A program made the position numbers and the translations under genes. Shown one piece after another: positions 7,857 to 24,953 of a stretch of DNA of 64,000 nt (position 1 is the stretch's first letter; each line of letters starts with the position of its first letter). Below the pieces are notes generated by a model, which was not told the origin of the DNA, ran no database searches, and saw only the letters and a program-made list of their open reading frames with translations. This DNA comes from Pseudomonas synxantha. GTDB lineage: Bacteria > Pseudomonadota > Gammaproteobacteria > Pseudomonadales > Pseudomonadaceae. Location of the stretch: the NCBI RefSeq assembly GCF_900105675.1, contig NZ_LT629786.1, forward strand, positions 1,736,001 through 1,800,000. Reading direction: 5' to 3'.

Positions 7857-7925
7857 AAAAATCCCGCCACCAAAAGGCTTGAATCAGGTAGATTCGCCGG
7901 CCTTACCCTTACAAGGATGTAGATC

Positions 7926-8555: not shown

Positions 8556-8579
8556 TAACGAGGCTTGGGCCAGAAATGA

Positions 8580-8608
8580 AAAATCCCGCCGGAAGGCGGG
8601 ATTTTTTT
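8580..8608. terminator. Bidirectional rho-independent terminator
   Basis: AAAATCCCGCC, a four-base loop GGAA, then GGCGGGATTTTTTT: a GC-rich stem with A and T runs on both sides. It ends the secreted-protein gene on the plus strand and the SCP2 gene on the minus strand. Confidence 0.9.
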
Positions 8609-8621
8609 GAGCGCGGCGTTA

Positions 8622-8936: not shown

Positions 8937-8992
8937 GGTTTCGATCCTTTTATGGTGAGTCCAGTGACCTTGGGGTCACGGTTGGCCACAGC

Positions 8993-9703
8993 TCATCGGA
9001 AAGTGATGAGCTGCGGCGCCTTCAACAGTTGCAAGTGGGCATGGTTGTTGAAGGAAGCCAGTGCCACCTCGCGACCGCGGAATTTCAGCTGGTTGAGCGA
9101 GGTGTTAACAATTTGCCAGTTCATTTCGAACGCCTGGGCGGCGGGCATTCGGGTAATCAGGTGGAGCAGGGCGGTGATGGTGCCGCCGGAGGTGAATACG
9201 GCGATCTTGTCGGCGTTGTCGGCGGCTTCGAGGATACGCTGCAAGCCGCCCTGGACGCGTTCGACAAACCCCAGCCAGCTTTCCAGCTCCGGTGGGTCAT
9301 AAGTGCCGGCCAGCCAGCGCTCGACAATCAGCGCGAAGATACGCTGGAACTCGCTGCGGTTCTGCGGGCCGTTACGCAGGATGTGCACGGCATCGGGTTC
9401 GCTGCCGAGCAGGTCGGGCAACAGGCCGCGGATGATCGCTTCGCCGTCGAATTCGTTGAACGCGCTGTCGGTCTCCAACGTCGGAACCGGGAGGCCAAGG
9501 GCGCTGTATTGATCGAACGTGGCGCTGGCGGTGTGCTGCTGGCGGCGCAGGTCACCGGCGATGCAGCGGTCGAAGCTCAGGCCCAGGTCGACCAGGTGGC
9601 GACCGAGCACTTGCGCCTGCTCCACGCCAACGGGCGATAGGACGTCATAGTCGTCTGCACCGAAGGAGGCCTGGCCATGTCGAATCAGATAGATGCTGCC
9701 CAC
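8993..9703 (-). CDS. Histidine phosphatase family protein
   Basis: A 236-residue member of the phosphoglycerate-mutase-like (branch 1) histidine phosphatases. The N-terminal LIRHGQASF carries the catalytic RHG triplet with the phospho-accepting His. The second arginine lies in AGDLRRQQHTA, the acid in NEFDGE, and the second histidine position (normally GHGG) is here VFTSGGTITALLH, so the usual His is replaced. This is seen in non-mutase members and suggests a phosphatase of unknown substrate rather than a glycolytic mutase. The start is GTG at 9703. A possible operator (9769-9786) lies 66 bases upstream. Confidence 0.82.
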   Translation of the reverse strand: MGSIYLIRHGQASFGADDYDVLSPVGVEQAQVLGRHLVDLGLSFDRCIAGDLRRQQHTASATFDQYSALGLPVPTLETDSAFNEFDGEAIIRGLLPDLLGSEPDAVHILRNGPQNRSEFQRIFALIVERWLAGTYDPPELESWLGFVERVQGGLQRILEAADNADKIAVFTSGGTITALLHLITRMPAAQAFEMNWQIVNTSLNQLKFRGREVALASFNNHAHLQLLKAPQLITFR

Positions 9704-9768
9704 GTCCGTTTTCCCGGTACGTTGAAAGTCTGGCGAGGTTATGAGGATGCCTGCAAGCTGTCAATGAA

Positions 9769-9786
9769 AAAACATACGCTTGTTTT
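9769..9786. promoter_or_regulatory. Inverted repeat, possible repressor site
   Basis: AAAACA, six bases, then TGTTTT form an 18-base palindrome in the gap between the histidine phosphatase gene (minus) and sohB (plus). The form and position suit a TetR-type repressor controlling the phosphatase/SCP2 pair; no regulator gene lies next to it. Confidence 0.4.
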
Positions 9787-9896
9787 AAAAGCTCGTTGGA
9801 GCCCGCCTGCTGGCGGTTTGATCACTGGCTCCTGCGCGATGGCGTCGGTATGCTGGGGCCATCCGCGCCTGGCGCAGTGCATTCTTAAGGAGACAT

Positions 9897-10922
9897 ATGG
9901 ATTTTTTGGCCGAATACGCGAGCTTTCTGGCGAAGACCGTCACTCTGGTGGTCGCTATTCTGGTGGTACTGATCAGCTTCGCAGCCCTGCGCAGCAAAGG
10001 TCGTCGTAAATCCGCCGGCCAATTGCAGGTCAGCAAGCTGAATGATTTCTACAAAGGCCTGCGCGAGCGCCTGGAGTCGAGCCTGCTCGACAAGGACCAG
10101 CTCAAGGCCTTGCGCAAAGCCGAGAGCAAGACTGAAAAGAAAAAGGGCAAGAAGAAACCCGAGCTCAAGCCGCGAGTGTTCGTGCTGGATTTCGACGGCG
10201 ACATCAAGGCCTCGGCCACCGAGAGCCTGCGCCATGAAATCACCGCGCTGCTGAGCCTGGCCACACCCAAGGATGAAGTGGTACTGCGCCTGGAAAGCGG
10301 CGGTGGCATGGTGCACAGCTATGGCCTGGCTTCGTCGCAACTGGCGCGCATCCGCCAGGCCGGTGTGCCATTGACCGTGTGCATCGACAAGGTGGCGGCC
10401 AGCGGCGGCTACATGATGGCGTGCATCGGCGAGAAGATCATCAGCGCACCGTTCGCCATCCTCGGCTCCATCGGCGTGGTCGCGCAGTTGCCCAACGTCA
10501 ATCGCTTGCTGAAAAAGCACGATATCGACTTCGAAGTGCTGACTGCCGGCGAATACAAACGCACCCTCACGGTGTTTGGCGAAAATACTGAGAAGGGCCG
10601 GGAGAAGTTCCAGGAAGACCTGGATATCACCCACCAGTTGTTCAAGAACTTCGTCTCGCGGTACCGCCCGCAATTGGCGATTGACGATGTAGCGACCGGT
10701 GAAGTGTGGCTGGGTGTGGCCGCCCTCGACAAACAGTTGGTCGACGAGCTGCAAACCAGCGATGAATACCTGGCCACCAAGGCCAAGACTGCCGAAGTGT
10801 TTCACCTGCACTATGCCGAGCGTAAAAGCCTGCAAGAGCGCGTGGGCCTGGCGGCCAGCGGTTCGGTAGACCGGGTATTGCTGACCTGGTGGAGCCGGCT
10901 GACCCAGCAGCGGTTCTGGTAA
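9897..10922 (+). CDS. sohB: SohB-like inner-membrane serine protease (S49)
   Basis: A 341-residue protein. A membrane segment near residues 13-30 is followed by a very basic linker (about 72-92, rich in Lys) and an S49/signal-peptide-peptidase domain. The catalytic serine is Ser169 in VAASGGYMMA and the general-base lysine is Lys221 in GEYKRTLT; SPFAILGSIG-like strand ISAPFAILGSIGVV is also present. SohB is a periplasm-facing peptidase of E. coli whose overexpression compensates for loss of DegP. The start at 9897 follows AAGGAG. Length and domain order are normal. Monocistronic; a REP follows. Confidence 0.93.
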   Translation: MDFLAEYASFLAKTVTLVVAILVVLISFAALRSKGRRKSAGQLQVSKLNDFYKGLRERLESSLLDKDQLKALRKAESKTEKKKGKKKPELKPRVFVLDFDGDIKASATESLRHEITALLSLATPKDEVVLRLESGGGMVHSYGLASSQLARIRQAGVPLTVCIDKVAASGGYMMACIGEKIISAPFAILGSIGVVAQLPNVNRLLKKHDIDFEVLTAGEYKRTLTVFGENTEKGREKFQEDLDITHQLFKNFVSRYRPQLAIDDVATGEVWLGVAALDKQLVDELQTSDEYLATKAKTAEVFHLHYAERKSLQERVGLAASGSVDRVLLTWWSRLTQQRFW

Positions 10923-11385: not shown

Positions 11386-12900
11386 TTAGCTGTGTGTGGG
11401 TATCGGCTTGCGCATCAGGCTCCCCACCACCAGCGCGCCCAGCAACCCCAATAAACCCGCCACCCACAACACCCCGCTGAACCCACCCACAAACGCCTGC
11501 CGCGCCAGCGGTTGCACCGTCACCCTTGCCGCCTCGGGCACCAGATCCAGCGCCGCGGGCATATCACCGGCTACTACCCGCGAAGCAATACCCGCCACCT
11601 GCGCCTGCCACTGCGGGTCGATACTCGCGCTCAGCAACTGCTCGCTGTGGCTGCTCAGCAATGCGCCATACACGCCGATGGCCAACATGATTGCGCTGAA
11701 ACGCATGGTGGTGCTCATGCCCGAGGCCATGCCTGCGCGATCTCGCGGCACGCAGGCCATGATGTTTTTCTGCGTGTCGCCATTGAGTAACCCCGCGCCT
11801 GCACCGGTGACGGCGATTGCCAGGGCAAAGGGCAGATACCCGCCAGCCTGCACGGCCCACGCACTCAACAGATTGCCGCAGCCCACCAGGGTCAAGCCGC
11901 TCGCCATCATGGTCGCCGGTGTGAAGCGGCCCGCCAAGCGTGCACCGATGCGTGGGCAGACCAGCATGGTCAAGGCAAACGGCAACATGCCCAGGCCCGA
12001 GGCAATCGCGGAAAAACCCAGGCCGTTCTGCAGGTAGAACGGCAGAAGCGTCATCATCACCTGGGCGCACCCGGCATAGGCAAACATGCCGAGCAAGGCG
12101 CCGATAAAGCGCGGGTGCCGAAACAGCTGTAAGTCCACCATCGGTCGCTGCTGCAGGTGCTCGGCCAGCACAAATACGCCCATCAACAGCCCGCCACCGA
12201 TGAGGCGGGCGTAGGTCAGCGGGCTGTCCCAGCCGATGCGATTGGCCTCGATCAGCCCCCAGATCAGGCACAGCAAGCTGCCACTGAACGCCAGGCTGCC
12301 CCTGGGATCCAGGCGCGCCGATCGGGTATCGCGGGACTCGGGAATCGCCCGCAGCACCAAGGCCATCAGTACCAGCCCCACCGGCAGGTTGAGATAGAAA
12401 ATCCAGCGCCAGCCCAGGTACTCGGTGATCAAGCCACCCAGGGTCGGCGCGGCGGTCATCGCCACGCCCATGCACGCGCCCCAGAACGCCCAGGCCTTGG
12501 CGCGTTCTATTTCATCGTGGAAGGTATGCCCGATAGATGCCAGTGCCGAGGTCAGCAGCAGCGCCGCACCCACCCCCTTCACGGCCCGGGCGATGTCCAG
12601 CCACAGCGCGGTGGGTGCTGCGCCGCAGCCCAGGGACGCGAGGATGAAAATACCCAGGCCCCAGACCAGGGTTTTCTTGCGGCCAAAGCGGTCGGCGATA
12701 CTCCCGGCCGGCAACAACAAGGCGGCGAATGCCAGCATATAAGCGCTGACTACCCACTCGATATCGGCAAAGTTGGCGCCCAGGTCGCGGGCGATGCTCG
12801 GCAGCGTGACGGCAACGATGTTGGTATCCAGCACGATCAACGAGCAGGCAGCGGAGGCGGTCACCAGCGTCAGGCGTGGACTGACCCGGCTCACAAGCAA
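11386..12900 (-). CDS. MFS multidrug efflux transporter, DHA2 (14-segment) type
   Basis: A 504-residue inner-membrane protein with about 14 hydrophobic segments, the count typical of the DHA2 (EmrB/QacA-like) drug:proton antiporters. Motif A is visible between segments 2 and 3 (GSIADRFGRKKTL), as is the motif C-like stretch MTAAPTLGGLITEYLGWRWIFYLN at the end of segment 5. LDTNIVAVTLPSIARDL in segment 1 is motif D1 of this group. It is divergent from a LysR-type gene, its likely regulator. No membrane-fusion partner is next to it, so it probably works alone. Substrates are unknown. Confidence 0.88.
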   Translation of the reverse strand: MLVSRVSPRLTLVTASAACSLIVLDTNIVAVTLPSIARDLGANFADIEWVVSAYMLAFAALLLPAGSIADRFGRKKTLVWGLGIFILASLGCGAAPTALWLDIARAVKGVGAALLLTSALASIGHTFHDEIERAKAWAFWGACMGVAMTAAPTLGGLITEYLGWRWIFYLNLPVGLVLMALVLRAIPESRDTRSARLDPRGSLAFSGSLLCLIWGLIEANRIGWDSPLTYARLIGGGLLMGVFVLAEHLQQRPMVDLQLFRHPRFIGALLGMFAYAGCAQVMMTLLPFYLQNGLGFSAIASGLGMLPFALTMLVCPRIGARLAGRFTPATMMASGLTLVGCGNLLSAWAVQAGGYLPFALAIAVTGAGAGLLNGDTQKNIMACVPRDRAGMASGMSTTMRFSAIMLAIGVYGALLSSHSEQLLSASIDPQWQAQVAGIASRVVAGDMPAALDLVPEAARVTVQPLARQAFVGGFSGVLWVAGLLGLLGALVVGSLMRKPIPTHS

Positions 12901-13044
12901 ATTACCTGGTAGGCAATACGGAAATCTCGGTTGACTTGCATCGCAAGGGCTCTCTAGTGTTCAGGTAATGCGAGCTTATCCCTGGCTAATCACATTTTTG
13001 TTAGGCACCAGGAAGTACTTCATTACCTTTGAGCTAATGCTGCC
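12901..13044. promoter_or_regulatory. Divergent promoter region with three ATTACCT motifs
   Basis: The gap between the MFS gene and the LysR gene holds ATTACCT at 12901-12907, AGGTAATG (the inverse) at 12963-12970 and CATTACCT at 13021-13028. Their even spread suggests binding sites for the LysR protein; clear -35/-10 boxes were not resolved. Confidence 0.4.
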
Positions 13045-13941
13045 ATGGAAATCCGCCATTTTCGTTACTTCCTGGCCGTGGCCCGGCAGCGCAATTTCAC
13101 CCGCGCCGCCGAGCAATTGGGTATTGCGCCGCCGACCCTGAGCCGGCAAATCCAGGACATGGAAGCCAGCCTGGGCACGCGCTTGTTTATCCGCCGGCAG
13201 CGCGAAGTCAGCCTCACCGAAGCGGGTGCCGCGCTGCTGAGCGAGGCTGAAGCCGCCGTGCGCCAATTCGAGTTCGCCCAGCGCAGTGCCCAGCGCGCCG
13301 GGCGTGGCGAGATCGGGCATATCGAGTTAGGTTACGTGGCCTCGGCGCTGTACTGCGGGCTGTTGCAGCGCCAGGTGCGAGGGTTCAGCCAGGCGTTTGC
13401 CGATGTGAACGTGAACCTGCGCGAATGGGCCATGGCTGCGCTACCGGGCGCGGTGGCCGATGGGCGCTGCGATATCGGTTATATCCGTTCGCCGATGACC
13501 CTGCCGGACGGCGTTGAGGCGGTGCGCCTGGACAGCGAAGGCTTTGTGCTGGCGCTGGCTCATGACTCATGGCTGCTGGGACTCAAGGCAATCACCTGCG
13601 AGCACCTGGAAAACGAGACTTTTATCCTGCCGGAACAAATCAGCGGCACCTTGCATGTCGCCGCTCAGGGCGGCTACGCACCGCGTCTGGGCGCGCAGCC
13701 GGGCGGGTTGGTGGCGGTGGTGGCCCTGGTGTCGTTGGGGCAGGGGGTTGCGGTAGTGCCGGCATCGATGGTCGGGCATGTGAGCCTGCCCGGCGTGGTG
13801 TATCGCAATATCCAGGGCAATGAGGCGTCGTCGTGGTTGTCGTTGATTTACCGGCGCTTTGAAAAAGCGCCGGCGGTGGCGCGGTATATCCAGCAGGTCA
13901 AGCAGTCAGTCGCGGCTGCACCGAGTCGGCCAGGCGCGTAA
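13045..13941 (+). CDS. LysR-family transcriptional regulator
   Basis: A 298-residue LysR-type regulator. The N-terminal winged helix (MEIRHFRYFLAVARQRNFTR, then AAEQLGIAPPTLSRQI) is followed by the dimer helix and a periplasmic-binding-protein-like effector domain. The HTH resembles the BenM/CatM branch, but the inducer cannot be inferred. It is divergent from the MFS transporter, which it most likely controls. Its 3' end overlaps the convergent dhaL gene by 44 bases, an unusually long tail-to-tail overlap. Confidence 0.9.
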   Translation: MEIRHFRYFLAVARQRNFTRAAEQLGIAPPTLSRQIQDMEASLGTRLFIRRQREVSLTEAGAALLSEAEAAVRQFEFAQRSAQRAGRGEIGHIELGYVASALYCGLLQRQVRGFSQAFADVNVNLREWAMAALPGAVADGRCDIGYIRSPMTLPDGVEAVRLDSEGFVLALAHDSWLLGLKAITCEHLENETFILPEQISGTLHVAAQGGYAPRLGAQPGGLVAVVALVSLGQGVAVVPASMVGHVSLPGVVYRNIQGNEASSWLSLIYRRFEKAPAVARYIQQVKQSVAAAPSRPGA

Positions 13942-14545
13942 GAATCAGGCAACACGACACCGCCCCGGCGTCCAGCACCCCGAGAGAGCGCTCGCCCAGG
14001 CGACTGGCGCGGCCGATCTTGGCCACCAGGTCCTTGGTCGAATCGCGCCCCTGGGAGGCGGCGGTTTTCATCGCCTCCAGCGCATCGTTGAAAGACGCCC
14101 CGGATGCATGTGCCTGTTCAAACGCCTCTACTGCAGGAATAAGGGTATCCATCAGGCACTTGTCGCCCACGCCCGCCTCGGTGATGTCCTGCAATGAAGT
14201 CAAGCCGCCGCGCAACAGATGGGCGAAGGTCGCGGCGTCGATGTCTTCACAGTTGCGCACTTCGTCGGCCATGCCAATAAACAGGCTGCCATACAGCGGG
14301 CCCATGGAGCCGCCGATGCCTTCCATCAGGCTCAGGGTCAGTTCATCCAGGGCTTGGGCCAGGCTCAGTTGGCGGCCTTCGATAGTGCGACCGCAGTGGG
14401 CGAAGCCCTTGGCCATGTTGATGCCGTGGTCACCGTCGCCAATGGCGCCGTCGACTGCGCTGAGGTATTCGCGATTGGCCACGATGACGCTGACCAGGTC
14501 GGCGACGATGGCGCTGCCGTCACGGGTGGAAAAGTGCTGGCTCAT
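13898..14545 (-). CDS. Dihydroxyacetone/erythrulose kinase, DhaL (ATP-binding) subunit
   Basis: A 215-residue DhaL-type subunit, the all-helical domain that binds Mg-ATP and phosphorylates the sugar held by DhaK. The metal-binding aspartates lie in DGAIGDGDHGINM, and GGSMGPLYGSLF and the C-terminal VLDAGAVSCCLIL are family segments. Its ATG lies two bases after the dhaK stop, so the two are translationally coupled. As a separate DhaL it could use ATP or, in other systems, a PTS DhaM; no DhaM is present here, so ATP is expected. It is the last gene of the minus-strand sugar-alcohol operon. Confidence 0.85.
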   Translation of the reverse strand: MSQHFSTRDGSAIVADLVSVIVANREYLSAVDGAIGDGDHGINMAKGFAHCGRTIEGRQLSLAQALDELTLSLMEGIGGSMGPLYGSLFIGMADEVRNCEDIDAATFAHLLRGGLTSLQDITEAGVGDKCLMDTLIPAVEAFEQAHASGASFNDALEAMKTAASQGRDSTKDLVAKIGRASRLGERSLGVLDAGAVSCCLILTRLADSVQPRLTA

Positions 14546-14547
14546 GT

Positions 14548-15549
14548 TTACTCCGCCTGGGTCATGCCGATGGAACGGCAGGGTTGGTCGATCAGGGTTT
14601 TCAGCTCGGCGTCGAGGCCGAGCAGGGTCAGGGTCACGCCCATCATTTCCAGGGAGGTGAAGTAGTTGCCGACGTAGCAGCGATGGATCTTCAAGCCCTT
14701 GGCCTTGAGCTGTTTTTCCACCTCGGCGTAGAAAATGTACAGCTCCATCACAGGCGTGGCGCCAAGGCCGGAGACCAGCACCACCACGCTGTCGTCCTGG
14801 CTGAAATCGCGGTCGGCGAGGATCGGTGCGAGCATGCGCTCGGCCATGGCCGCAGCCGGCTCGATCGGGATGACTTCGATGCCCGGCTCGCCATGATGGC
14901 CGATGCCCAGTTCCATCTGGCCGTCAGCGATCTGGAAGTTCGGCTTGCCCACGGCGGCGATGGTGCACGGCGTGAGGCCGATGCCAATGGAGCGGCACTG
15001 GTCGACGGTTTTCTGCGCGACGCGAATCACCCCGTCCAGGTCGTAATGCTGGGCGGCGGCGGCACCGCCGATCTTCCACATGAAAATTTCCCCGGCCACC
15101 CCGCGACGCTTGGCGATGTCGGCCTTGGGTGCCGACGCCACGTCATCGTTGGCCACTACGGTGCGGATGCGCATGTCTTTGCTGGCGGCCATCTTCATCG
15201 CCAGCTTGACGTTCATATTGTCGCCGGCGTAGTTGCCATACAGGCAGGCCACGCCCGCGCCATGGTCGGCGGCGCGGAAGGCGTCGAAAAAGCTCTTGGC
15301 GGTGGGCGAGGAGAAAATCTCGCCGACGGCCACGGCGTCCACCAGGCCCGGGCCGACATAGCCGAGGAACGCCGGCTCATGCCCGGAGCCGCCGCCGGTG
15401 ACGATGCCGACACGGCCCTGGGCGGACGGCCTGGCCTTGACGATGACCCGTGGGTTGGTCTCGTACTGGCGCAGTTCGGGGTGCGCGACCAGGATGCCGC
15501 GCAGCATGTCCTCGACCACTTGGTCGGGATCGTTGATGACTCGATTCAT
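14548..15549 (-). CDS. Dihydroxyacetone/erythrulose kinase, DhaK (substrate-binding) subunit
   Basis: A 333-residue DhaK-type subunit. In this family a histidine binds the keto group of the substrate covalently; it is present here in GIGHHGEPG. Family segments GGGSGHEPAFLGYVG and NYAGDNMNVKLA are present. I chose the start at 15549 (MNRVINDPDQ) because AGGAA lies eight bases upstream and the length then matches the family; the frame stays open to 15585. With dhaL it forms a two-subunit kinase. The context (two polyol dehydrogenases, RpiB-type isomerase) suggests erythrulose rather than dihydroxyacetone as substrate. Known kinases of tetritol pathways in Mycobacterium belong to this family. 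Confidence 0.85.
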   Translation of the reverse strand: MNRVINDPDQVVEDMLRGILVAHPELRQYETNPRVIVKARPSAQGRVGIVTGGGSGHEPAFLGYVGPGLVDAVAVGEIFSSPTAKSFFDAFRAADHGAGVACLYGNYAGDNMNVKLAMKMAASKDMRIRTVVANDDVASAPKADIAKRRGVAGEIFMWKIGGAAAAQHYDLDGVIRVAQKTVDQCRSIGIGLTPCTIAAVGKPNFQIADGQMELGIGHHGEPGIEVIPIEPAAAMAERMLAPILADRDFSQDDSVVVLVSGLGATPVMELYIFYAEVEKQLKAKGLKIHRCYVGNYFTSLEMMGVTLTLLGLDAELKTLIDQPCRSIGMTQAE

Positions 15550-15594
15550 AACGCGGGTTCCTGTGTTCTTGTTCTGTTGGTTCAACGCAGTTCA

Positions 15595-15700
15595 GTGTGG
15601 GAGGGGCGGTGCGACGATTCGACTTGCCCCCGATGGCGGTACAACAGTGAAAAATCAGTTGGTTGACACACCGCTATCGGGAGCAAGCCCCCTCCCACAT
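15595..15700. repeat. REPIN with an interrupted left arm
   Basis: The right arm (ATCGGGAGCAAGCCCCCTCC) is standard. The left arm reads GTGTGGGAGGGG, then 15 extra bases (GGTGCGACGATTCGA within them), then CTTGCCCCCGATGG. The unit lies in the gap between the zinc dehydrogenase and dhaK genes, within the operon. Confidence 0.85.
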
Positions 15701-15717
15701 TTGGACCTGTGGTGTGC

Positions 15718-16833
15718 TTAAGGCTCGAGTACAACTTTGAGCGATTTATCGCCGCGCTCCATCACCGCAAACGCCTCCTTGAAATCCGCCAGGGCAAACT
15801 TGTGGGTCACCACATCGCGCATGTCGATCTTGCGGTTGCCGATAAAGTCGATGGCCCGCGGGTACATATAGGGCCCCAGGTGCGAGCCGAGGATGTCCAG
15901 CTCCTTGCGGTCGCCGATGATCGACCAGTCCACCGTGGCTTCGTCGTTGAACACGCTGAATTCGACGAAGCGCCCCAGCTTGCGCAGCATCGCCAGGCCC
16001 TGGTTGACCGCCTTGTGGTGCCCGGTGGGTTCGATGTAGATGTCGCAACCGTAGCCATCCGTGATCTCGCGGATTTTCGCCAGCACATCCACCTCGGCCG
16101 GGTTCCAGACTTCGTCGGCGCCCATGCGCAGGGCGAGGGCGGCGCGTTCGGGTTTAATGTCCAGCACGATGAGTTTTTTCGGGTTGCGCAACCGCACCGC
16201 GCCGATGATGCCCAGGCCCAAAGTGCCGGCGCCTGCGACCACTACGATGTCGTCATGGTCGACGTTGGCGCGCTCCGCCGCGTGCAGCGAGCAGGCCAGC
16301 GGCTCGATCAGGATCGCTTCGTCGGGCGCGATGGATTCCGGCACTTTGTGGATGATGCCTTCCTTGGTGAAGATCATGTACTGGGCCATGGCGCCCTGCA
16401 CATTATTCTGGAAGCCATACAGGTCGTGCTTCTGGCACATCCAGTACTGGCCGTGGTTGCAGAAGCGGCAACCCCAGCATGGCACGATCTGTTCGGAAAT
16501 CACCCGGTCGCCGACCGCCACGCCACGCTTTTCGGCACCGGGGCCTAGGGCGACTACACGGCACACGAACTCATGTCCGGGAATCATCGGCGGCTTCACA
16601 TAGCGCGGTTGCTCGGCATCGCCCCAGAACGACGGCGCGCCGCGATAGGTCTTGATATCGCCCATGCAGATGCCGCACAGCTCGACCTTGGTGAGGATCT
16701 CGTCGGGGCCGGGCGTGGGCACGTCGACGGTTTCCAGGCGATAGTCTTCCGGGCCATGGCAGACCACGGCCTGCATGGTTTTCGGGATGCTCGGGGCGAG
16801 TTGTTGCGGTGTGCGTTCGGTGACGGTGGACAT
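15718..16833 (-). CDS. Zinc-dependent polyol dehydrogenase (MDR family)
   Basis: A 371-residue medium-chain dehydrogenase. The catalytic zinc ligands are in VELCGICMGD and PGHEFVCRV. The structural-zinc loop is partly changed (CWGCRFCNHGQYWMC keeps four cysteines). The Rossmann motif GAGTLGLGIIG and the following LDIKPERA (acid at the strand end) point to NAD. In Mycobacterium smegmatis a zinc dehydrogenase oxidises erythritol and L-threitol; the neighbours here (SDR, DhaK/L, RpiB) suggest the same kind of role, oxidation of a polyol to erythrulose. This specific substrate is an inference. It lies 28 bases after the SDR gene on the same strand. Confidence 0.85.
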   Translation of the reverse strand: MSTVTERTPQQLAPSIPKTMQAVVCHGPEDYRLETVDVPTPGPDEILTKVELCGICMGDIKTYRGAPSFWGDAEQPRYVKPPMIPGHEFVCRVVALGPGAEKRGVAVGDRVISEQIVPCWGCRFCNHGQYWMCQKHDLYGFQNNVQGAMAQYMIFTKEGIIHKVPESIAPDEAILIEPLACSLHAAERANVDHDDIVVVAGAGTLGLGIIGAVRLRNPKKLIVLDIKPERAALALRMGADEVWNPAEVDVLAKIREITDGYGCDIYIEPTGHHKAVNQGLAMLRKLGRFVEFSVFNDEATVDWSIIGDRKELDILGSHLGPYMYPRAIDFIGNRKIDMRDVVTHKFALADFKEAFAVMERGDKSLKVVLEP

Positions 16834-16861
16834 GACAGGACCTCACGACATAAAGATGGAA

Positions 16862-17617
16862 TTACTGAATGCTGTAGCCGCCATCGATCACCATGTTGGC
16901 GCCGGTGATCATCTGCGCGGCATCGCTGAGCAGGTACAACGCCAGCCCGGCGATTTCTTCAGGCAATGCAAAGCGCCCCGCCGGGATCTGCAATTTGGCC
17001 CGCTCGCCCACTTCACCAGCCCAGGCTTTTTTGCCCAGGGCGGTTTCGACGATGGTCGGGGAGATGGCGTTGACGTTGATCTGCGGCGCCCATTCCATGG
17101 CCAGGACCTTGGTCATGCCGACGATGGCCGCCTTGCTGGCGCAATAGGCGACGTGACGGTCCAGGCCGATGACGGCGGCCTGGGACGCAAGGTTGACGAT
17201 GCGCCCGCTGCCCTGGGCGAGCATGTGCTTGGCGCACGCCTGGGCCACGAAGAAACTGGCTTTGAGATTAATATCCAGGGTGGTGTCCCAGGCGCTTTCA
17301 CTGACCTCGATGGCCTTGTCCAGCAGCACCACGCCGGCGCTGTTGATCAGGTAATCCAGGCGTTGGAAGTGTGCGAATACGCGGTCGATGGCGGGTTGTA
17401 TCTGGCCGGTCTGGCCGAGATCCACGGCGATGCCCAGGTGCCCGCTACCCAGGCTGGCGGCAACTTCAACCACCGCCGGGTCGCGATCCAGCAACGCCAC
17501 GCGGGCACCGCGTTCCACCAGCAGGGTGGCACAGGCCAGGCCGATGCCGGCGGCACCGCCGGTGATCACCGCACAACGGCCACTGAGGTCGAAGGCTTGG
17601 TTCCAGAAACCAGACAT
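16862..17617 (-). CDS. Short-chain dehydrogenase, likely sugar-alcohol oxidising
   Basis: A 251-residue classical SDR. The cofactor motif is TGGAAGIGLA, then NSAGV in place of NNAG, the catalytic Ser in VNLASQAAV and the YxxxK pair in YCASKAA. The start at 17617 (MSGFWNQ) follows GGAG; the frame is open to 17629. An Asp after the second strand (LLDRDPA) favours NAD(H). SDRs of this type include D-threitol and other polyol dehydrogenases, and the operon context supports that use. It sits between the periplasmic-binding-protein gene (separated by a REPIN) and the zinc dehydrogenase gene. Confidence 0.85.
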   Translation of the reverse strand: MSGFWNQAFDLSGRCAVITGGAAGIGLACATLLVERGARVALLDRDPAVVEVAASLGSGHLGIAVDLGQTGQIQPAIDRVFAHFQRLDYLINSAGVVLLDKAIEVSESAWDTTLDINLKASFFVAQACAKHMLAQGSGRIVNLASQAAVIGLDRHVAYCASKAAIVGMTKVLAMEWAPQINVNAISPTIVETALGKKAWAGEVGERAKLQIPAGRFALPEEIAGLALYLLSDAAQMITGANMVIDGGYSIQ

Positions 17618-17652
17618 GAATAACTCCATTTTCGAAAACGGTGAAGATCAAA

Positions 17653-17743
17653 ATGTGGGAGGGGGCTTGCCCCCGATAGCGGTGTAACAGTGATAAATCA
17701 GGTGGCTGATACACCGCTATCGGGAGCAAGCCCCCTCCCACAG
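17653..17743. repeat. REPIN (inverted REP pair)
   Basis: Arms GTGGGAGGGGGCTTGCCCCC and GGGAGCAAGCCCCCTCCCAC enclose a loop in which GATAGCGGTGT pairs with ACACCGCTATC, so the stem extends well past the REP heads. It separates the binding-protein gene from the SDR gene inside the operon and may attenuate or stabilise the transcript. Confidence 0.92.
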
Positions 17744-17766
17744 TTGACTGTGTTTCAAGCCACTGA

Positions 17767-18774
17767 CTACTTGCCGCCGCTGACTTGCTTGTACAGAGCA
17801 TCCGCATTGGCATTGGTCACCGGCACCCATGGCAGGATGTAGTTCTTGGCCGTACCGTCGCCCCATTTCACGTCCTTGGCATAGCGCTCCCAGATCACCG
17901 ACTGCGGCTTGTAGTCCTTGCCGGCCAGGGCGCGCAGGGCCACGTCCAGCGCGCCTTGGGACTGGGCCTGGGCGTCCTGGAGGAAGGTGGTGACTTCATC
18001 TTTTTTCGCTGCCTGGATCGCATCCGGCATGCCGTCAATGGAGGTCACGGGCACGTCCTTGGCTGCAAGGCCGTGGGACTTCAGGGCCTGCACGGCGCCC
18101 AGGGCCATGTCATCGTTCTGTGCGATCACACCGTTGATGCCCTTGGGGTGAGCGTTCAGCCAGTCTTCGGTAAGGGTCAGCGCCTGGGCGCGGTCCCAGT
18201 TGGCGGTTTTCTTCTCGATGATCTTAATGTCCGGATGTTTGCCCAGCACTTCCAGCTCGCCTTTTTCCCGGTCGATCTGCGCCGATTGGCCAATCGGGCC
18301 CTGGATGATCACCACGTTGCCCTTGCCGTTGAGCTTGTCGACCATGGCCTGGGCCTGCAGGCGGCCGCCTTCCACGTCGTCATTACCGACATATGGCACG
18401 TTGGCATCGGCTACTTTCGTATTGGAGGCGATGACCACTACGTCGTTGCTCATGGCGGCCTTGACGGTGCCGACACCGGCCTTGGTATCGATCGGCACGA
18501 ACAGGATCGCGTCGTAGCGTTGGGTCACCATGTTTTCGATCTGGTTGTTCTGGGTCAGGGCGTCGTAGTTGCCGTCAAACACGGTCAACTGCACGGTGCC
18601 ATCCTTGACCGCCGGATGTTCCTTGAGCTCACGCACCCAGTTCTGCATGAACTGGCCCTTGAGGCCGTAGACGGCTGCGCCGATCTTGTAGGTCTTGCCA
18701 TCGGCAGCCATGGCGATGCTGCTGGCGAGCAGGGAAAGGGCCGCCGCAGCGGCCAAGGTGGTACCCAGTTTCAT
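17767..18774 (-). CDS. ABC importer periplasmic sugar-binding protein (ribose type)
   Basis: A 335-residue periplasmic binding protein of the ribose/galactose (PBP1) class. Residues 1-23 form a signal peptide (LAAAAALSLLASSIAMA then ADG). The mature protein has the class features: IENMVTQRYDAILFVPID, YVGNDDVEGG with its ligand-contacting Asn-Asp, and NGVIAQNDDMALGA. It would capture a sugar or sugar alcohol for the permease and ATPase encoded just upstream on the same strand. A tetritol ligand is inferred from the enzymes of the operon. Confidence 0.9.
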   Translation of the reverse strand: MKLGTTLAAAAALSLLASSIAMAADGKTYKIGAAVYGLKGQFMQNWVRELKEHPAVKDGTVQLTVFDGNYDALTQNNQIENMVTQRYDAILFVPIDTKAGVGTVKAAMSNDVVVIASNTKVADANVPYVGNDDVEGGRLQAQAMVDKLNGKGNVVIIQGPIGQSAQIDREKGELEVLGKHPDIKIIEKKTANWDRAQALTLTEDWLNAHPKGINGVIAQNDDMALGAVQALKSHGLAAKDVPVTSIDGMPDAIQAAKKDEVTTFLQDAQAQSQGALDVALRALAGKDYKPQSVIWERYAKDVKWGDGTAKNYILPWVPVTNANADALYKQVSGGK

Positions 18775-18808
18775 AAGTCGAACTCCAGTTATTGTTATCG
18801 GTCGTTCT

Positions 18809-19786
18809 TCAGCGTTTTTTCTTGCGCCACACGTCGATCAGTACTGCGAACACGATGATCAGGCCCTTGGCGACCTGTTGGTAATAGGAGGACACACCGA
18901 GCAGGTTCAGGCCGTTGTTGATCACGCCGATCAACAGCGCACCGAACAAGGTGCCGACGATGCTGCCGGTGCCACCCGACAGGCTGGTACCGCCGATCAC
19001 CACCGCAGCAATTGCGTCCAGCTCGTAGGAAACCCCGGCTTGGGGCAGGGCAGAGGTGGTACGTGCCGACAGCACCACGCCGGCCAATCCGGCGAGCAGG
19101 CCCGAGACCACGTACACCGAGAACATCACCTTGCGCACACCGATGCCGGAGGTGCGTGCGCTCTTTTCATTGCCGCCCACCGCGTACACATAGCGCCCGT
19201 AAGTGGTGTAGCGCAGCACCATCCAGAAGATCAGTGCGACCACGGCGAAGATGATGATCGGCACGCCTATCGGGCCGATCTTGCCGATACCCAGGGCCAG
19301 GTAGGCGTCGGGCAGGTCGGTGATAGGGCTGCCGTCGTTGAGGATAAAGGTCATGCCCCGGGCGATGCTGAGCATGCCCAGGGTCGCCACGAACGGCGGG
19401 ATCGACAGGTTGGCCACCATAAAGCCATTGACCACGCCGAGCATCGCCCCGGCAAACATCCCGGCGCTGACCGCCGCCAGCAGGCCGTAACCCTGGGTGG
19501 CGACCATGGCGCTGCACAGCCCGGCAAACGCCAGGATCGAACCCACAGAGAGGTCGATGCCCTTGGTCAGGATCACATAGGTCATGCCCACGGCGAGGAT
19601 GCCGTTGATGGAAGTCTGGCGCAGGATGTCCATCCAGTTGCGCCAGGTCATGAAGTATTCGCTGGAAAACGCCATCACCACGCAGAGCAGGATAAACACC
19701 AGCGGCAGGCCGAAGCGGTCGAGGGACAGGCGCAGGCGGCTGCGTGGGGCGGTAGTAATAGGTGCGGCGATGGTTTTGGCATTCAT
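18809..19786 (-). CDS. ABC importer permease (RbsC type)
   Basis: A 325-residue inner-membrane permease of the ribose-type ABC importers, with 8-10 hydrophobic segments. Family stretches are [33 protein letters not shown] and [20 protein letters not shown]. Its ATG at 19786 overlaps the TGA stop of the ATPase gene (ATGA), indicating translational coupling. An upstream in-frame extension to 20371 is only the opposite-frame shadow of the ATPase gene. Confidence 0.92.
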
Positions 19787-21270
19787 GAGGCAAGACTCAA
19801 CAAGGCTTCCTGGGAAAGGGCGGTGTCGGTGCTGATGGTCACCAGCCGGCCACCCTTGAATACGGCGATGCGATCGCTCAGGTGCAGCAGTTCCGGGGCT
19901 TCCGACGACACCACGATGGCCGCGCCGCCAGCCCGTACGAACTGGTCGAGCAGGCGGTAGATCTCCTGCTTGGCGCCTTCGTCGATGCCGCGGGTCGGTT
20001 CGTCGCAGAGCAGGCACACCGGCTCGGTGGACAGGCATTTGGCGAGAACCACTTTCTGCTGGTTGCCGCCGCTCATGGATGCCACCGGCAAATCCAGGGA
20101 GCTGGTCTTGATCTGCAAGCGCTTGACCATGTCCTCGGCCAGCTGGGTTTCCTTGCGTGCATTGATCAGCGACCAGCTCGATAAGCGCTTGTAGGCCGAC
20201 AGCGCAATGTTCGACAAGATACTGCCGGTCAGTACCAGGCCACTGTCCTTGCGGTCTTCGGTGACCAGGGACATGCCCGCGTCGATGGTGGCCTTGGGCA
20301 TGCCGATCGGCATGGGCTTGCCTTGCAGGGTGACGCTGCCGGAGTCCGCCACGGTCAGGCCGTAGATGCAATTGAGGAACTCACTGCGCCCGGAGCCCAT
20401 CAGCCCATAGATGCCGAGGATTTCGCCTTGGCGCAGTTGCAGGCTGATGTCGTGGAACTCGCCGTTGCGGCTCAGGCTGTCGACTTGCAGGCAGGTGTCG
20501 GCGGCGCATTCGCGGCCCACCTTGTGGTCGATGCGCGTCAGCTCCTGGCCGACGATGCCGCGCACCAGGTGGTCGCGGTCGATATCGGCCATGCGCCCGC
20601 TTTCCACAAACGCGCCATCGCGGAAGATGCTGTACTCATCGGCGATCTGCGCCAGTTCGCTCAGGCGATGGGACACATACACGATGCCGGCGCCACGGGC
20701 GGTGAGGCGGCGAATGGCCTTGAACAGGGTCTCGGCCTCGCGCTCGCCGATGGCCGAGGTGGGCTCATCCATGATCATCACCTGGCAGTCATGGCTGAAC
20801 GCCTTGGCGATTTCCACCAGTTGGATCTGCGCCACGCTCAAGCGGTGCATGGGGCTGGTGGCGTCGACCTCGAATTCCAGGCTTTCCAGCAGTTCGCGGG
20901 TACGCCGATTGAGGGTCTTGCTGTCGACGATGCAGCCGGCGCGGCGTGGTTCGCGGCCCAGCCAGATGTTTTCGGCGACGGTCATGTAGGGGATGGGTTC
21001 CAGCTCCTGGGTGATCATCGCGATCCCCGCCGCCAGGGCTTCACTCGGGCGGTTGAACTGTACCGGCGCACCGTTGAGCAGGATGCTGCCGGCGTCACGC
21101 TGGGTGATGCCCATCAGGATGCTCAGGAAGGTCGACTTGCCGGCGCCATTGCCGCCGCACAGGGCGTGGACGCTGCCGGCCCGCAGAGAAAGGCGCCCGT
21201 CACGCAGGGCGGGCACCCCGGCGTAAGCCTTGGCGACGTGTTCAGCCTGGAGCAGTAATGGCGTGACCAT
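19783..21270 (-). CDS. ABC importer ATPase (RbsA type, two ABC domains)
   Basis: A 495-residue protein with two tandem ATPase domains, as in RbsA/XylG. The first has Walker A GGNGAGKST, signature LSVAQIQLVEIA and Walker B VMIMDEPTSAI. The second has the usual degenerate Walker A (GLMGSGRSE), signature MSGGNQQKVVLA and CDEPTRGID. The start at 21270 (MVTPLLLQAEH) follows GAGGA; an open extension to 21342 runs into the control region. It is the first gene of the minus-strand operon, divergent from the rpiB-like gene. Confidence 0.92.
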   Translation of the reverse strand: MVTPLLLQAEHVAKAYAGVPALRDGRLSLRAGSVHALCGGNGAGKSTFLSILMGITQRDAGSILLNGAPVQFNRPSEALAAGIAMITQELEPIPYMTVAENIWLGREPRRAGCIVDSKTLNRRTRELLESLEFEVDATSPMHRLSVAQIQLVEIAKAFSHDCQVMIMDEPTSAIGEREAETLFKAIRRLTARGAGIVYVSHRLSELAQIADEYSIFRDGAFVESGRMADIDRDHLVRGIVGQELTRIDHKVGRECAADTCLQVDSLSRNGEFHDISLQLRQGEILGIYGLMGSGRSEFLNCIYGLTVADSGSVTLQGKPMPIGMPKATIDAGMSLVTEDRKDSGLVLTGSILSNIALSAYKRLSSWSLINARKETQLAEDMVKRLQIKTSSLDLPVASMSGGNQQKVVLAKCLSTEPVCLLCDEPTRGIDEGAKQEIYRLLDQFVRAGGAAIVVSSEAPELLHLSDRIAVFKGGRLVTISTDTALSQEALLSLAS

Positions 21271-21553
21271 CGGCGTGTCCTCGTGCTGTGAATTCTTATT
21301 AGGTCGCACAGTCATGTTTCGCTGTGAGCATATGTGTATCAAATGAAATTCTGATCAGTCAATCTCTTTCACTTAAAAGCGATGATTCTCATCTTTAGCG
21401 GCAATATTGGCTTTTAAAGCCGCATTGATTGGAAGGTCAGTTAAATGGCGCTTGACAGAAAGGGCAGATTGCCCGCGAAATGACTGAGCGAAATTTCAAT
21501 GACTGATCATATGATCAGTCCCAAACAGGATTACGGCAGCGGAGCCAGACGCT
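21271..21553. promoter_or_regulatory. Divergent control region of the sugar-alcohol locus
   Basis: The region is AT-richer than its surroundings. It holds a perfect 20-base palindrome, GACTGATCATATGATCAGTC, at 21501-21520, 33 bases before the rpiB-like start. A matching half-site, CTGATCAGTC, lies at 21351-21360 near the ABC operon. Both are likely operators for the SorC-type regulator encoded at 22079. Promoter boxes could not be fixed with confidence. Confidence 0.65.
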
Positions 21554-22015
21554 ATGAACGCACCTTTCCCGGTGGCTATCGGATGTGATGAAGCGGGTTT
21601 TGAGCTTAAAGAGCTGTTGAGGCGCCATATCGAAGCGCTGGGTTACCCGGTGACCGACTTCGGCACTCACTCCACCGCGCCGGTGCTTTACCCGGACATC
21701 GCCCTGGCTGTGGCCAATGCCATCAATGCCGGGCAGCAGCGCCTGGGCGTGCTGGTGTGCGGCACCGGGATCGGCATGGCCATTTCGGCCAACAAGGTCA
21801 TGGGTATTCGTGCGGCCCAGGCCCATGACACCTATTCGGCGGAGCGTGCGCGCAAGAGCAACGATGCTCAGATCCTGTCCATCGGTGCACGGGTGATCGG
21901 TGCAGAACTGGCCAAGAGCATCGTCACTGCGTTCCTGGCCTCGGAGTTCGAGGTGGCGCGTTCGGGGGCCAAGGTCGAGCGCATCAACGCGATCGAACGC
22001 GATGGGCATCAGTAG
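21554..22015 (+). CDS. RpiB/LacAB-family sugar-phosphate isomerase
   Basis: A 153-residue isomerase of the ribose-5-phosphate isomerase B fold. The catalytic cysteine lies in VLVCGTGIGMAISANK, and the phosphate-binding region includes AAQAHDTYSAERARKSNDAQIL with its conserved His and Arg. Relatives interconvert ribose, allose, galactose or erythrulose phosphates. The DerI/EryI-type members convert erythrulose 4-phosphate to erythrose 4-phosphate, which would complete the pathway of the divergent operon. The specificity is inferred from context. The regulator gene follows 64 bases downstream. Confidence 0.88.
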   Translation: MNAPFPVAIGCDEAGFELKELLRRHIEALGYPVTDFGTHSTAPVLYPDIALAVANAINAGQQRLGVLVCGTGIGMAISANKVMGIRAAQAHDTYSAERARKSNDAQILSIGARVIGAELAKSIVTAFLASEFEVARSGAKVERINAIERDGHQ

Positions 22016-22078
22016 TGGACGGCACGGGGCAAGAGTCGGGAGAATGCGCCTTTGACGCCGAAACGGAAGCCCGTCCCC

Positions 22079-23059
22079 ATGAGTGACAGTACCCAGCGCA
22101 TGGCCAGTGATATCGATCAGATGACCGAAGTGGCGATGCTCTATTACCTTGAGAACGTCACTCAGGAGGCCATCGCCAAACGCTTCGATCTGTCGCGGGC
22201 AAAAGTCAGTCGCCTGCTCAAGCGGGCCCGGGATGAAGGTATTGTCGAGGTGCGCGTGTTGCAGCACCCGGCGATGAACAACGAGCTGGAGAGGGCGCTG
22301 GTGGAGCGCTTCAAGCTTGACCGCGCCTTGATCGCCGTCGACCACAGCGACCCTGACACCCAGCGCTCGGCGGTCGCCAGCCTGGTGGCCAACTACCTGA
22401 ACAAGACCCTCGGTGACGGCATGATCGTCGCCGTCGGCATGGGGCGTAACGTCGGCGCGGTGGCCGACAACGTCTTTCTGCCGGTGACGCGCAACTGCAC
22501 GTTTGTGTGTGCCATTGGCGGTTCGCTCAAGGCCGGCGAGTACATGAACCCCGACCACATCTGCCGGCGCCTGGCCCTGCGCTTTGGCGGCGAGAGCGAA
22601 AGCCTGTACGCCCCGGCGCTGGTGGCCAATCCGGAACTGCGCGGCGTGCTGATCAATAACGACACGGTGCGCTCCACCCTCGACCGTGCGCGGCGAGCCG
22701 ACATTGCCCTGATCGGCATCGGTGACATGAGCGAGAACAGCAACATGGTGCGCATGGGCTGGTTCTCGCCCCAGGAAATCGCCCAGGCGCGGTTATCCGG
22801 CACCGTGGGGGACATGATGGGCTATGACTTTATCGACATTCACGGCCAGCCCGCAGTCAACACCATCCAGGGCCGGGTGATCGGGTTGACCGTGCAGGAG
22901 CTGTTCCGTATCCCGGATGTGGTGGCGATTGCCAGTGAAAACACCAAGGCGGCAGCGACGCTGGGGGCGTTGCGCTCGGGGGTGATCAATACGCTGGCGA
23001 CGACGGTCACCAATGCCCACACCATCCTGGCACTGGATGATGCCACCCGAAAGTCCTGA
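22079..23059 (+). CDS. SorC/DeoR-type sugar-binding transcriptional regulator
   Basis: A 326-residue (from ATG 22079) regulator of the SorC family. An N-terminal HTH (QEAIAKRFDLSRAKVSRL) is followed by a large sugar-phosphate-binding domain related to glucosamine-6-phosphate deaminase (VAVGMGRNVGAVAD, IGIGDMSENSNMV, and DIHGQPAV). A TTG at 22052 with GGGAG upstream is an alternative start that adds nine residues. Such proteins usually repress until a phosphorylated pathway intermediate binds. Position downstream of the isomerase gene and next to the palindromic operator makes it the regulator of the sugar-alcohol locus. Confidence 0.88.
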   Translation: MSDSTQRMASDIDQMTEVAMLYYLENVTQEAIAKRFDLSRAKVSRLLKRARDEGIVEVRVLQHPAMNNELERALVERFKLDRALIAVDHSDPDTQRSAVASLVANYLNKTLGDGMIVAVGMGRNVGAVADNVFLPVTRNCTFVCAIGGSLKAGEYMNPDHICRRLALRFGGESESLYAPALVANPELRGVLINNDTVRSTLDRARRADIALIGIGDMSENSNMVRMGWFSPQEIAQARLSGTVGDMMGYDFIDIHGQPAVNTIQGRVIGLTVQELFRIPDVVAIASENTKAAATLGALRSGVINTLATTVTNAHTILALDDATRKS

Positions 23060-23390: not shown

Positions 23391-24953
23391 ATGGAATGGT
23401 TAGCGGATCCAACGGCCTGGCTCGGCCTTGCGACCTTGATTGTGCTGGAACTGGTGCTGGGTATCGACAACCTGGTGTTTATCGCGATCCTGGCGGACAA
23501 GTTGCCGCCGGAACAGCGTGACCGTGCGCGGTTGATCGGTTTGTCCCTGGCGTTGCTGATGCGCCTGGGCCTGTTGGCGAGTATTTCCTGGTTGGTGACC
23601 CTCACCCAGCCGCTGTTCGAGGTGTTCGACAAGAGCTTCTCCGGTCGCGACCTGATCATGCTGTTTGGTGGTGTGTTCCTGTTGTTCAAGGCCACCATGG
23701 AATTGCATGAGCGCCTGGAAGGCCATGTGGCCCAGCACAAGGGCAGTGTGGCCTACGCCATGTTCTGGCCGATCGTGGCGCAGATCGTGGTGCTGGATGC
23801 GGTGTTCTCCCTCGACGCGGTGATTACCGCCGTGGGCATGGTGGACGAACTGGCGGTGATGATGATCGCGGTGATCGTCTCCATCGGCCTGATGATCGTG
23901 GCGAGCAAGCCGTTGACCCGCTTCGTTAACGCCCACCCCACGGTGATCATGCTGTGCCTGGGCTTCTTGATGATGATCGGTTTCGCCCTGACCGCCGAAG
24001 GCTTGGGCTTCCATATTCCGAAGGGCTACCTGTACGCGGCCATTGGCTTCTCGATTCTGATCGAGCTGTTCAACCAGATCGCCCGGTCGCGGCGCAAGAA
24101 GTCGGCGCAGGGTGTGCTCCCGGTGCGTGAGCGTACCGCCCATGCGGTGATGCGCTTGTTGGGTGGCCGCAGCCTGGCGGTGGAAGAGGTGGGCGAAGAG
24201 GTTGCCGACCTGCTGGGCGAGCCGGATGCCGCCCAAGGTCCGCTGTTTGACCGACGCGAGCGGGTGATGATCAGCGGTGTGCTGCAACTGGCCGAGCGGC
24301 CGATTCGCTCCTTGATGACGCCTCGGGCCAAGGTTGACTGCATCGACCTGGCGGATGATCCCGAGGCTATCCGCCTGAAGTTGATGCATTCGTCCTACTC
24401 GCGCCTGCCGCTGATCCGCAATGGCGCGGTGGATGAGCCCTTGGGCTTTGTGCACAAGAAGGAGTTGCTCAAGGAATACCTGGCCGGCAACGAGCCGAAC
24501 CTGGAACACCTGGCGCGCCGGGCGATCAATCTGCTGGAGAGCTTTTCGATCCTCAATGCCTTGGAGCAGATGCGTCAGGAATCCACTCACATCGCCTTCG
24601 TGATCAACGAGTTCGGGGATTTCATGGGTGTGTTGAGCATGACCGATATTCTGGAATCCATCGCCGGTGAATTGCCCGATGCCAGTGAAATCGAAGGCCC
24701 GGACATTGTCGAGGAGGGCGCGGGCTTTCGTGCCAATGGTGCCTTGAATCTTAATCAGGTGAGCCGACGCACCGGCTTCAAGGCCGTGGCGACGGAAGAT
24801 TACCAGACCCTGGCCGGCCTGGTGATGAGCCTGTTGGATCGCTTGCCGGTTGTGGGCGATAGTCTTGAATACGAGGGGTGGCGCCTGACTGTGGCCGCGG
24901 TGGAAGAGCGGAGGGTGACGCAGGTTTGTTTGTCGCCGCTTACGGCCCCTTGA
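23391..24953 (+). CDS. TerC-family membrane protein with CBS pair and CorC_HlyC domain (YegH/YoaE type)
   Basis: A 520-residue protein in three parts. Residues 1-230 form a TerC membrane domain with about seven segments and the paired acidic motifs [17 protein letters not shown] and [14 protein letters not shown] that are thought to bind metal. Residues about 300-420 form a CBS pair ([12 protein letters not shown], then [18 protein letters not shown]). Residues about 435-515 form a CorC_HlyC transporter-associated domain. Related proteins take part in metal-ion efflux or in metal loading of exported proteins. The specific ion is unknown. Monocistronic; its 3' end overlaps the convergent thioredoxin-like gene by 14 bases. 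Confidence 0.87.

Follow-up and report, generated by a model that had tools for sequence, protein, structure and literature searches.

The closest described counterpart of the locus considered here, nine genes at positions 13898-23059 of a 64,000-nucleotide stretch (the window) of the Pseudomonas synxantha genome (contig NZ_LT629786.1, positions 1,736,001 to 1,800,000), comes from Mycolicibacterium smegmatis, in which Huang and colleagues reportedly described in 2015 pathways for D-threitol, L-threitol, and erythritol with the enzymes DthD, EltD, DerK, DerI, LerK, and LerI. DerK is a fused kinase. Like these pathways, the P. synxantha locus combines a DthD-family short-chain dehydrogenase (SDR), a zinc dehydrogenase, a DhaK-family kinase, an RpiB-type isomerase, and a CUT2-type importer, and its predicted intermediates are likewise D-erythrulose and D-erythrulose 4-phosphate. 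Pathways of this type have a precedent in M. smegmatis, but here the kinase is made of two genes and is the only one, there is no LerI-type TIM or L-erythrulose branch, a SorC regulator and a palindrome are present, and the carriers are Gammaproteobacteria.

In Brucella and rhizobia (EryA, EryB, EryC, EryH, and EryI), erythritol is first phosphorylated by an FGGY kinase, and the last step is of the RpiB type. That pathway ends at erythrose 4-phosphate (PMC12780249). The P. synxantha locus resembles it in its RpiB-type last step and differs in having no EryA-type FGGY kinase. Separate genes for DhaK and DhaL are shared with the DhaKLM kinases of the phosphotransferase system (PTS), whereas the P. 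synxantha genome has no DhaM and its DhaK belongs to a different clade. A locus on Thalassospira marina pCSC3H3 has a CUT2-type importer, a GolD/DthD SDR, and a DhaK that falls in the same clade and shares 58% identity, but differs by a kinase in which DhaK is fused with DhaL (594 aa), a second DhaL, a SorC-DhaK fusion, and a TIM, and that stretch has no annotated RpiB or zinc dehydrogenase.

Erythritol use separates plant-associated Pseudomonas (PMC6283537 and PMC3338640), and use of tetroses and tetritols is wanted for biotechnology based on formose sugars and formaldehyde assimilation (PMC12780249 and PMC10733421). In the open-access literature searched, we found no description of a tetritol gene set for Pseudomonas. 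The locus would supply such a gene set for erythritol use, with a three-step route, a testable operator, and named strains predicted to grow.

A predicted tetritol locus with a single two-gene kinase

The nine genes probably import D-threitol and erythritol and route both via D-erythrulose to D-erythrose 4-phosphate, and among the readings considered, this one holds up best. In the proposed scheme, the CUT2-type ABC importer would take up D-threitol and erythritol, the DthD-family SDR would oxidize D-threitol to D-erythrulose, and the zinc dehydrogenase would oxidize erythritol to the same ketose. The DhaK/DhaL kinase would then form D-erythrulose 4-phosphate at the expense of ATP, and the RpiB-type enzyme would convert this to D-erythrose 4-phosphate, which would enter the pentose phosphate pathway. 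The SorC-type regulator would probably bind the palindrome and answer to a sugar phosphate of the route. We infer every substrate, every reaction, and the pairing of regulator and operator from sequence and comparison.

Nine genes fill the interval, which confirms the grouping of an ABC importer, an SDR, a zinc dehydrogenase, DhaK, DhaL, an RpiB-type isomerase, and a SorC regulator in the initial annotation. Each is an open reading frame at the coordinates listed below, most of which is covered by family matches. They form two divergent units, with ATPase, permease, binding protein, SDR, zinc dehydrogenase, DhaK, and DhaL on the minus strand and RpiB and SorC on the plus strand. The source genome is a single contig of 6,841,916 bases. 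The DhaK start (15549) was taken from the point where family matches begin, and the ATPase start was set at a conserved ATG (21270); a stop shown by tblastn in 22 relatives lies upstream of that ATG.

13898..14545, minus strand: DhaL subunit, predicted ATP-binding (PF02734 173.8 bits; TIGR02365 160.6 bits, above the cut-off of 138.3)
14548..15549 (ORF to 15585), minus strand: DhaK subunit of a predicted D-erythrulose kinase (PF02733 384 bits; PRK14479 424 bits, below the cut-off of 492 for this fused form; sole Dak1 in the genome)
15718..16833, minus strand: zinc-dependent medium-chain dehydrogenase, predicted to convert erythritol to D-erythrulose (some homologues of 62-82% identity named erythritol/L-threitol dehydrogenase)
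16862..17629, minus strand: SDR of the GolD/DthD family, predicted to convert D-threitol to D-erythrulose (NF005309 385.1 bits, cut-off 286)
17767..18774, minus strand: periplasmic binding protein (SBP), predicted tetritol binder (solved relatives 4rsm, 5hko, and 4rs3; predicted pocket 7/7; predicted local distance difference test, pLDDT, 83.5)
18809..19801, minus strand: CUT2-type permease (PF02653 162.6 bits; RbsC-like 311.8 bits, below the cut-off of 398)
19783..21270 (ORF from 21342), minus strand: CUT2-type ABC ATPase with two ATPase domains (PF00005; AraG/RbsA-like, below those cut-offs)
21501..21520, no strand: perfect palindrome GACTGATCATATGATCAGTC, predicted SorC operator (14-base core at one place in 6.84 Mb; inner pattern kept in 48/60 relatives)
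21554..22015, plus strand: RpiB-type isomerase, predicted D-erythrulose 4-phosphate isomerase (NF004051 183.3 bits, above the cut-off of 135; sole PF02502 match in the genome)
22052..23059, plus strand: SorC/DeoR-type regulator, predicted sugar-phosphate sensor (PF04198 242.7 bits; NF053881 159.3 bits, below the cut-off of 420)

Homologous loci were taken from the best 80 of 568 matches and comprise 65 Pseudomonadaceae-like loci (L002-L066) and 15 others (L067-L081). All nine genes occur in the same order in 51 of the 65, so the arrangement is not due to chance; five of the remainder are cut by a contig end (L018, L026, L041, L043, and L046), and nine are otherwise arranged.

Kinase, isomerase, and the rest of the genome

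The initial annotation described a two-gene kinase without DhaM, and this stands: Dak1 and Dak2 are in separate genes, the Dak1 domain occurs once in the genome, and the EIIA-man (DhaM) domain had no match across it. We infer ATP as the phosphoryl donor because DhaM is absent and the DhaL family is present. Both domains of a DhaK-family kinase are in place, and its specificity for erythrulose is a prediction. Both subunits score higher with the fused-kinase model PRK14479 than with separate models (DhaK, 424 versus at most 358.9 bits; DhaL, 178.5 versus 160.6 bits). In a tree of 31 DhaK rows, 20 formed one clade with support 100/100, which holds the window's DhaK and those of Pseudomonas, Azotobacter, Enterobacterales, Commensalibacter, a Klebsiella plasmid, Thalassospira, and S. 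meliloti pSymB; the PTS DhaK of E. coli and the DhaKLM DhaK of L. plantarum fall outside. The Thalassospira fusion lies beside its GolD/DthD SDR, CUT2-type importer, and TIM.

Some variant arrangements also occur. A SorC-type regulator is fused to a DhaK domain beside ordinary DhaK and DhaL genes in L087 (10537-12591) and L088 (9759-11846). On an Enterobacter IncN plasmid (L099, 5293-7947), a group of genes next to PTS genes encodes DhaK together with a DAK2-domain protein, a class II aldolase, and an HPr-like protein; this DhaK falls outside the clade of the window's DhaK.

RpiB is encoded once in the genome, within the locus, and TIM once, far from it. A second kinase and a TIM-type isomerase for an L-branch were not found, there being one Dak1 and a distant sole TIM. 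The genome has three FGGY kinases, all outside the window, in agreement with the initial annotation that neither an EryA-type kinase nor a TIM-like isomerase is present at the locus. One is GlpK, near the glycerol 3-phosphate dehydrogenase gene (GlpD) and away from the locus; the second, an mtl-type XylB xylulokinase, adjoins a mannitol/D-arabinitol-type dehydrogenase (below all cut-offs) in an mtl-type operon elsewhere. The third is an XylB-like kinase (348.7 bits, below the cut-off of 380.25) in L097 (C1:1296000-1311000, 2535-9998), where it accompanies a second CUT2 importer, whose binding protein shares 29% identity with that of the window, a zinc dehydrogenase 53% identical to the window's, and an SDR downstream. 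L097 is probably a pentitol locus, perhaps for ribitol. Glycerol has its own locus elsewhere, as has one further substrate, likely a pentitol, and D-arabitol probably has one too. Because other polyols have their own loci, the window's kinase and isomerase are left for a ketose whose phosphate RpiB can handle. The suggestion that the complete route is the D-erythrulose one is supported genome-wide and by comparison, with the substrates themselves as predictions.

In 11 of the 15 loci L067-L081, RpiB has a transketolase and/or transaldolase gene next to it, as it has in 4 of the 65 loci L002-L066 (L051, L056, L060, and, about 1 kb away, Azotobacter vinelandii L062); the Klebsiella plasmid locus (L086) has both. 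The presence of these genes in relatives ranging from Azotobacter to Serratia fits erythrose 4-phosphate as the exit of the route. Neither gene was seen in L075, L078, or L079, and L067 has a transketolase at a distance.

Two dehydrogenases predicted to yield D-erythrulose

The SDR passes the GolD/DthD subfamily cut-off (NF005309), a model that covers GolD as well as DthD. For the zinc dehydrogenase, a likeness to EltD is suggested by the names of some of the 62-82% identical homologues, presumably given by homology, and such names can be wrong. An M. smegmatis protein, A0QXD8, bears the name erythritol/L-threitol dehydrogenase (PMC12542623), and EltD together with LerK forms D-erythrulose 4-phosphate from erythritol and L-erythrulose 1-phosphate from L-threitol (PMC10733421). 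An EltD-type zinc dehydrogenase therefore needs no L-branch, and both dehydrogenases could yield D-erythrulose, which would explain their sharing one kinase and one RpiB.

A genome-wide search of 20 genomes found an unbroken zinc dehydrogenase orthologue (at least 61% identity) in 13 and a broken one in three, namely P. avellanae (L038) and P. amygdali (L040), each in two pieces, and P. bohemica (L048), with one stop. No second intact copy was found in the genome of P. amygdali or P. avellanae. At the cut-offs used, the gene was not found in four genomes, G410, G411, and G412, with a best match of 33%, and G416, whose assemblies are possibly incomplete. These four still carry SDR, DhaK, DhaL, RpiB, importer, and SorC, a gene set that would be expected of an SDR-only route. 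Conversely, the Klebsiella plasmid and Pseudalkalibacillus have a zinc dehydrogenase with DhaK, DhaL, and RpiB, and no SDR within the fetched stretches. The SDR is split over two frames in L033 and L080. In L040, the ATPase is also in two frames, like its zinc dehydrogenase.

Binding protein, operator, and regulator

The three solved structures ranked highest in the SBP search are all from M. smegmatis (4rsm, 167.6 bits; 5hko, 162.2 bits; 4rs3, 161.2 bits), and the next scored 132.6. All seven predicted pocket positions are identical to those of 4rsm and 4rs3; the L097 binding protein differs at three.

The palindrome lies between the divergent units. A scan of the 6.84-Mb genome for its 14-base core pattern, TGATCAWWTGATCA, matched a single place, and a reversed control gave no match. 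Among the loci L002-L066 that hold both RpiB and ATPase, the inner pattern GATCAWWTGATC was found between these genes in 48 of 60 and was absent there in L012, L028, L035-L040, L042, L044, L045, and L049, most of which we take to belong to the P. syringae side. Two of these 12, L039 and L044, were aligned and carry a degenerate form of the palindrome at the same place. No copy of the inner pattern turned up in the Serratia, Providencia, and Commensalibacter loci. It is also present upstream of a lone unit of SBP and zinc dehydrogenase in L108-L112. SorC probably binds the palindrome and responds to a sugar phosphate of the route.

Distribution of the locus

A close DhaK (at least 86% identity) was present in 62 of the 398 Pseudomonas genomes searched, P. 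synxantha included, and eight more had a distant match only; a close DhaK is not general across Pseudomonas. The nearest named loci among the matches listed, with DhaK 99% identical, are those of P. libanensis, P. khavaziana, and P. paracarnis, species of the fluorescens group.

On the Klebsiella pneumoniae plasmid pCAV1042-183 (L086, 1640-10842), a cassette of tkt-tal-rpiB and zinc dehydrogenase-MFS-DhaK-DhaL-SorC is flanked by insertion sequences, and the plasmid is typed as conjugative. Dehydrogenases like that of L086 are also found on Salmonella, E. coli, and Raoultella plasmids. In A. vinelandii (L062, 11876-16588), an aldehyde dehydrogenase and a LamB-type porin gene lie beside the DhaL and zinc dehydrogenase genes, and SorC was not found in that stretch.

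A dissected, two-locus form

In P. extremorientalis (L058), P. cedrina (L057), and P. nabeulensis (L052), one locus carries RpiB, ATPase, permease, SDR, DhaK, DhaL, and SorC and has neither SBP nor zinc dehydrogenase. The site equivalent to that of the operon in the window, next to TerC (L108, L111, and L110, respectively), holds SBP and zinc dehydrogenase only. Nucleotide comparison showed that the reduced sites keep pieces of the full operon, namely a stretch shortly 5' of the ATPase start, SBP, and zinc dehydrogenase, and that SorC-RpiB, ATPase-permease, SDR, and DhaK-DhaL are missing between them. Two P. gingeri genomes (L109 and L112) retain RpiB, SBP, and zinc dehydrogenase at the reduced site, and one of them DhaL as well. 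In P. gingeri L109 (5690-7807), a 705-residue ORF lies directly 3' of the reduced-locus RpiB.

Genome-wide copy counts cover DhaK, SBP, and zinc dehydrogenase, and DhaK is single-copy in all eight genomes of L051-L054, L056-L058, and L060. These loci were considered as lacking the zinc dehydrogenase, and erythritol-negative P. extremorientalis as a natural knock-out, an idea rejected when the genome-wide search found the zinc dehydrogenase (95%) and binding protein (95%) of P. extremorientalis on another contig; at the cut-offs used, the gene is absent genome-wide only from G410, G411, G412, and G416. The arrangement is most simply read as loss of genes from a full operon, the direction of change being our suggestion, and since the same palindrome occurs at both sites, the separated parts are probably still one regulon. 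In the dissected operons, genes appear to have been lost reciprocally, which would bind separate loci into a single pathway.

For the whole of the following picture to hold jointly, we see about an even chance: a tetritol regulon with a single kinase, in which the routes from erythritol and D-threitol meet directly at D-erythrulose without an L-branch, which is mobile (including on a conjugative Klebsiella plasmid that brings a transketolase and a transaldolase of its own), and which in the P. extremorientalis/cedrina/nabeulensis lineage exists as two paralogous operons with reciprocal gene loss (ATPase, permease, SDR, kinase, isomerase, and regulator versus binding protein and erythritol dehydrogenase) under one shared operator.

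Erythritol growth reports and alternative substrates

Table 1 of PMC5817194 scores erythritol assimilation as positive for P. canadensis, P. simiae, P. costantinii, P. salomonii, and P. azotoformans and as negative for P. extremorientalis, P. poae, and P. trivialis. A contiguous, intact locus is present in P. canadensis (L064), P. simiae (L015), P. costantinii (L011), and P. salomonii (L021); none was seen in P. azotoformans, P. poae, or P. trivialis among the best 80 of 568 matches. We take ICMP 14252, the source of L021, to be the same type strain as LMG 22120. P. congelans is scored positive for erythritol and negative for adonitol (PMC7564387), and its locus (L039) is contiguous and intact. 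These five strains, positive for erythritol and with the locus in one piece, agree with the tetritol reading. No significance is claimed for this match, given the small sample and the relatedness of the strains. At the species level, A. vinelandii is listed as an erythritol user and A. chroococcum as a non-user (PMC4465626), and P. viridiflava as positive (PMC3338640). P. syringae pathovars are divided (PMC6283537). P. glycinae forms no acid from erythritol (PMC7520993) and had no locus among the best 80 of 568 matches.

Several observations weigh against a D-threitol and erythritol route. The zinc dehydrogenase scores below every NCBIfam cut-off, RpiB misses the DerI equivalog NF051858 (157.9 bits, cut-off 240; a rhizobial form by its short name), and the predicted SBP model matches the fold of ribose binders equally well. 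In S. meliloti, a DhaK of the same clade lies next to neither an RpiB nor a dehydrogenase of these families, so the clade alone is no proof of substrate. In the window locus, as in 61 of the 65 loci L002-L066, RpiB has neither a transketolase nor a transaldolase gene next to it; in seven of those 61, a transketolase-like gene several kb past DhaL was left out of the count. P. extremorientalis has the nine genes over two loci (L058 and L108) yet was scored erythritol-negative, which does not fit unless expression fails. P. rhizosphaerae is listed as erythritol-positive yet had no locus among the best 80 of 568 matches, and erythritol is apparently among the substrates not used by P. chlororaphis S1Bt23, a species of which another strain carries the locus (L050). 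Finally, ribitol (adonitol) use parallels erythritol use exactly across the eight strains of PMC5817194.

That coincidence also speaks for the alternative that survives best, although we think it unlikely: use of ribitol or another pentitol, with the zinc dehydrogenase forming D-ribulose, DhaK/DhaL phosphorylating it, and RpiB yielding ribose 5-phosphate. RpiB enzymes in general act on ribose 5-phosphate. Moreover, a Sphingomonas protein that carries the annotation erythritol/L-threitol dehydrogenase turned out to be a ribitol dehydrogenase, its relative activity on erythritol being 2% (PMC7343156). However, the P. synxantha genome has the second CUT2 locus, L097, with its own FGGY kinase, and the 53% zinc dehydrogenase paralogue matches adonitol use in five of six strains, the exception being P. 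extremorientalis. P. congelans, with its intact locus and erythritol-positive, adonitol-negative phenotype, has no such paralogue at the cut-off used. An FGGY pentulokinase is found in the separate L097 and not beside the window's dehydrogenase, and we know of no DhaK-family pentulokinases.

Uptake of free tetroses (D-erythrose or D-erythrulose) or of another ketose, with the dehydrogenases as accessories, appears improbable. Isolation on D-erythrose yielded strains nearest to Serratia nevei and to Pseudomonas protegens (PMC12780249), and S. nevei 9rpt1 carries the locus (L080), though with its SDR in two frames. Two unrelated polyol-type dehydrogenases are nevertheless kept in the cluster, and the binding protein resembles the M. 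smegmatis group; both speak against this reading.

A glycerol/dihydroxyacetone route through a GolD-like SDR and a dihydroxyacetone kinase is highly improbable: GolD and DthD share one NCBIfam model, and DhaK and DhaL are dihydroxyacetone kinase families, but GlpK and GlpD lie near each other elsewhere in the genome, the DhaK falls in another clade than the PTS dihydroxyacetone kinases, and neither RpiB nor the transketolase and transaldolase of relatives would have a role. Branched or other C4 polyols, such as 2-C-methyltetrols from plants and aerosols, have only the faintest chance of being the natural substrates, for although several carriers are plant-associated by name or source and a methyl branch is compatible with the sequence, a branched ketose phosphate gives no obvious usable RpiB product.

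Neighboring genes

The locus is flanked by a LysR gene (13045-13941, plus strand) on the DhaL side and by a gene at 23391-24953 (plus strand) on the SorC side, presumably encoding a TerC/CBS-domain-like membrane protein. The LysR gene overlaps the end of DhaL by 44 bases. An MFS transporter and LysR (window 11386-13941) adjoin the locus in many relatives too and are still present at the reduced loci L108, L109, and L112.

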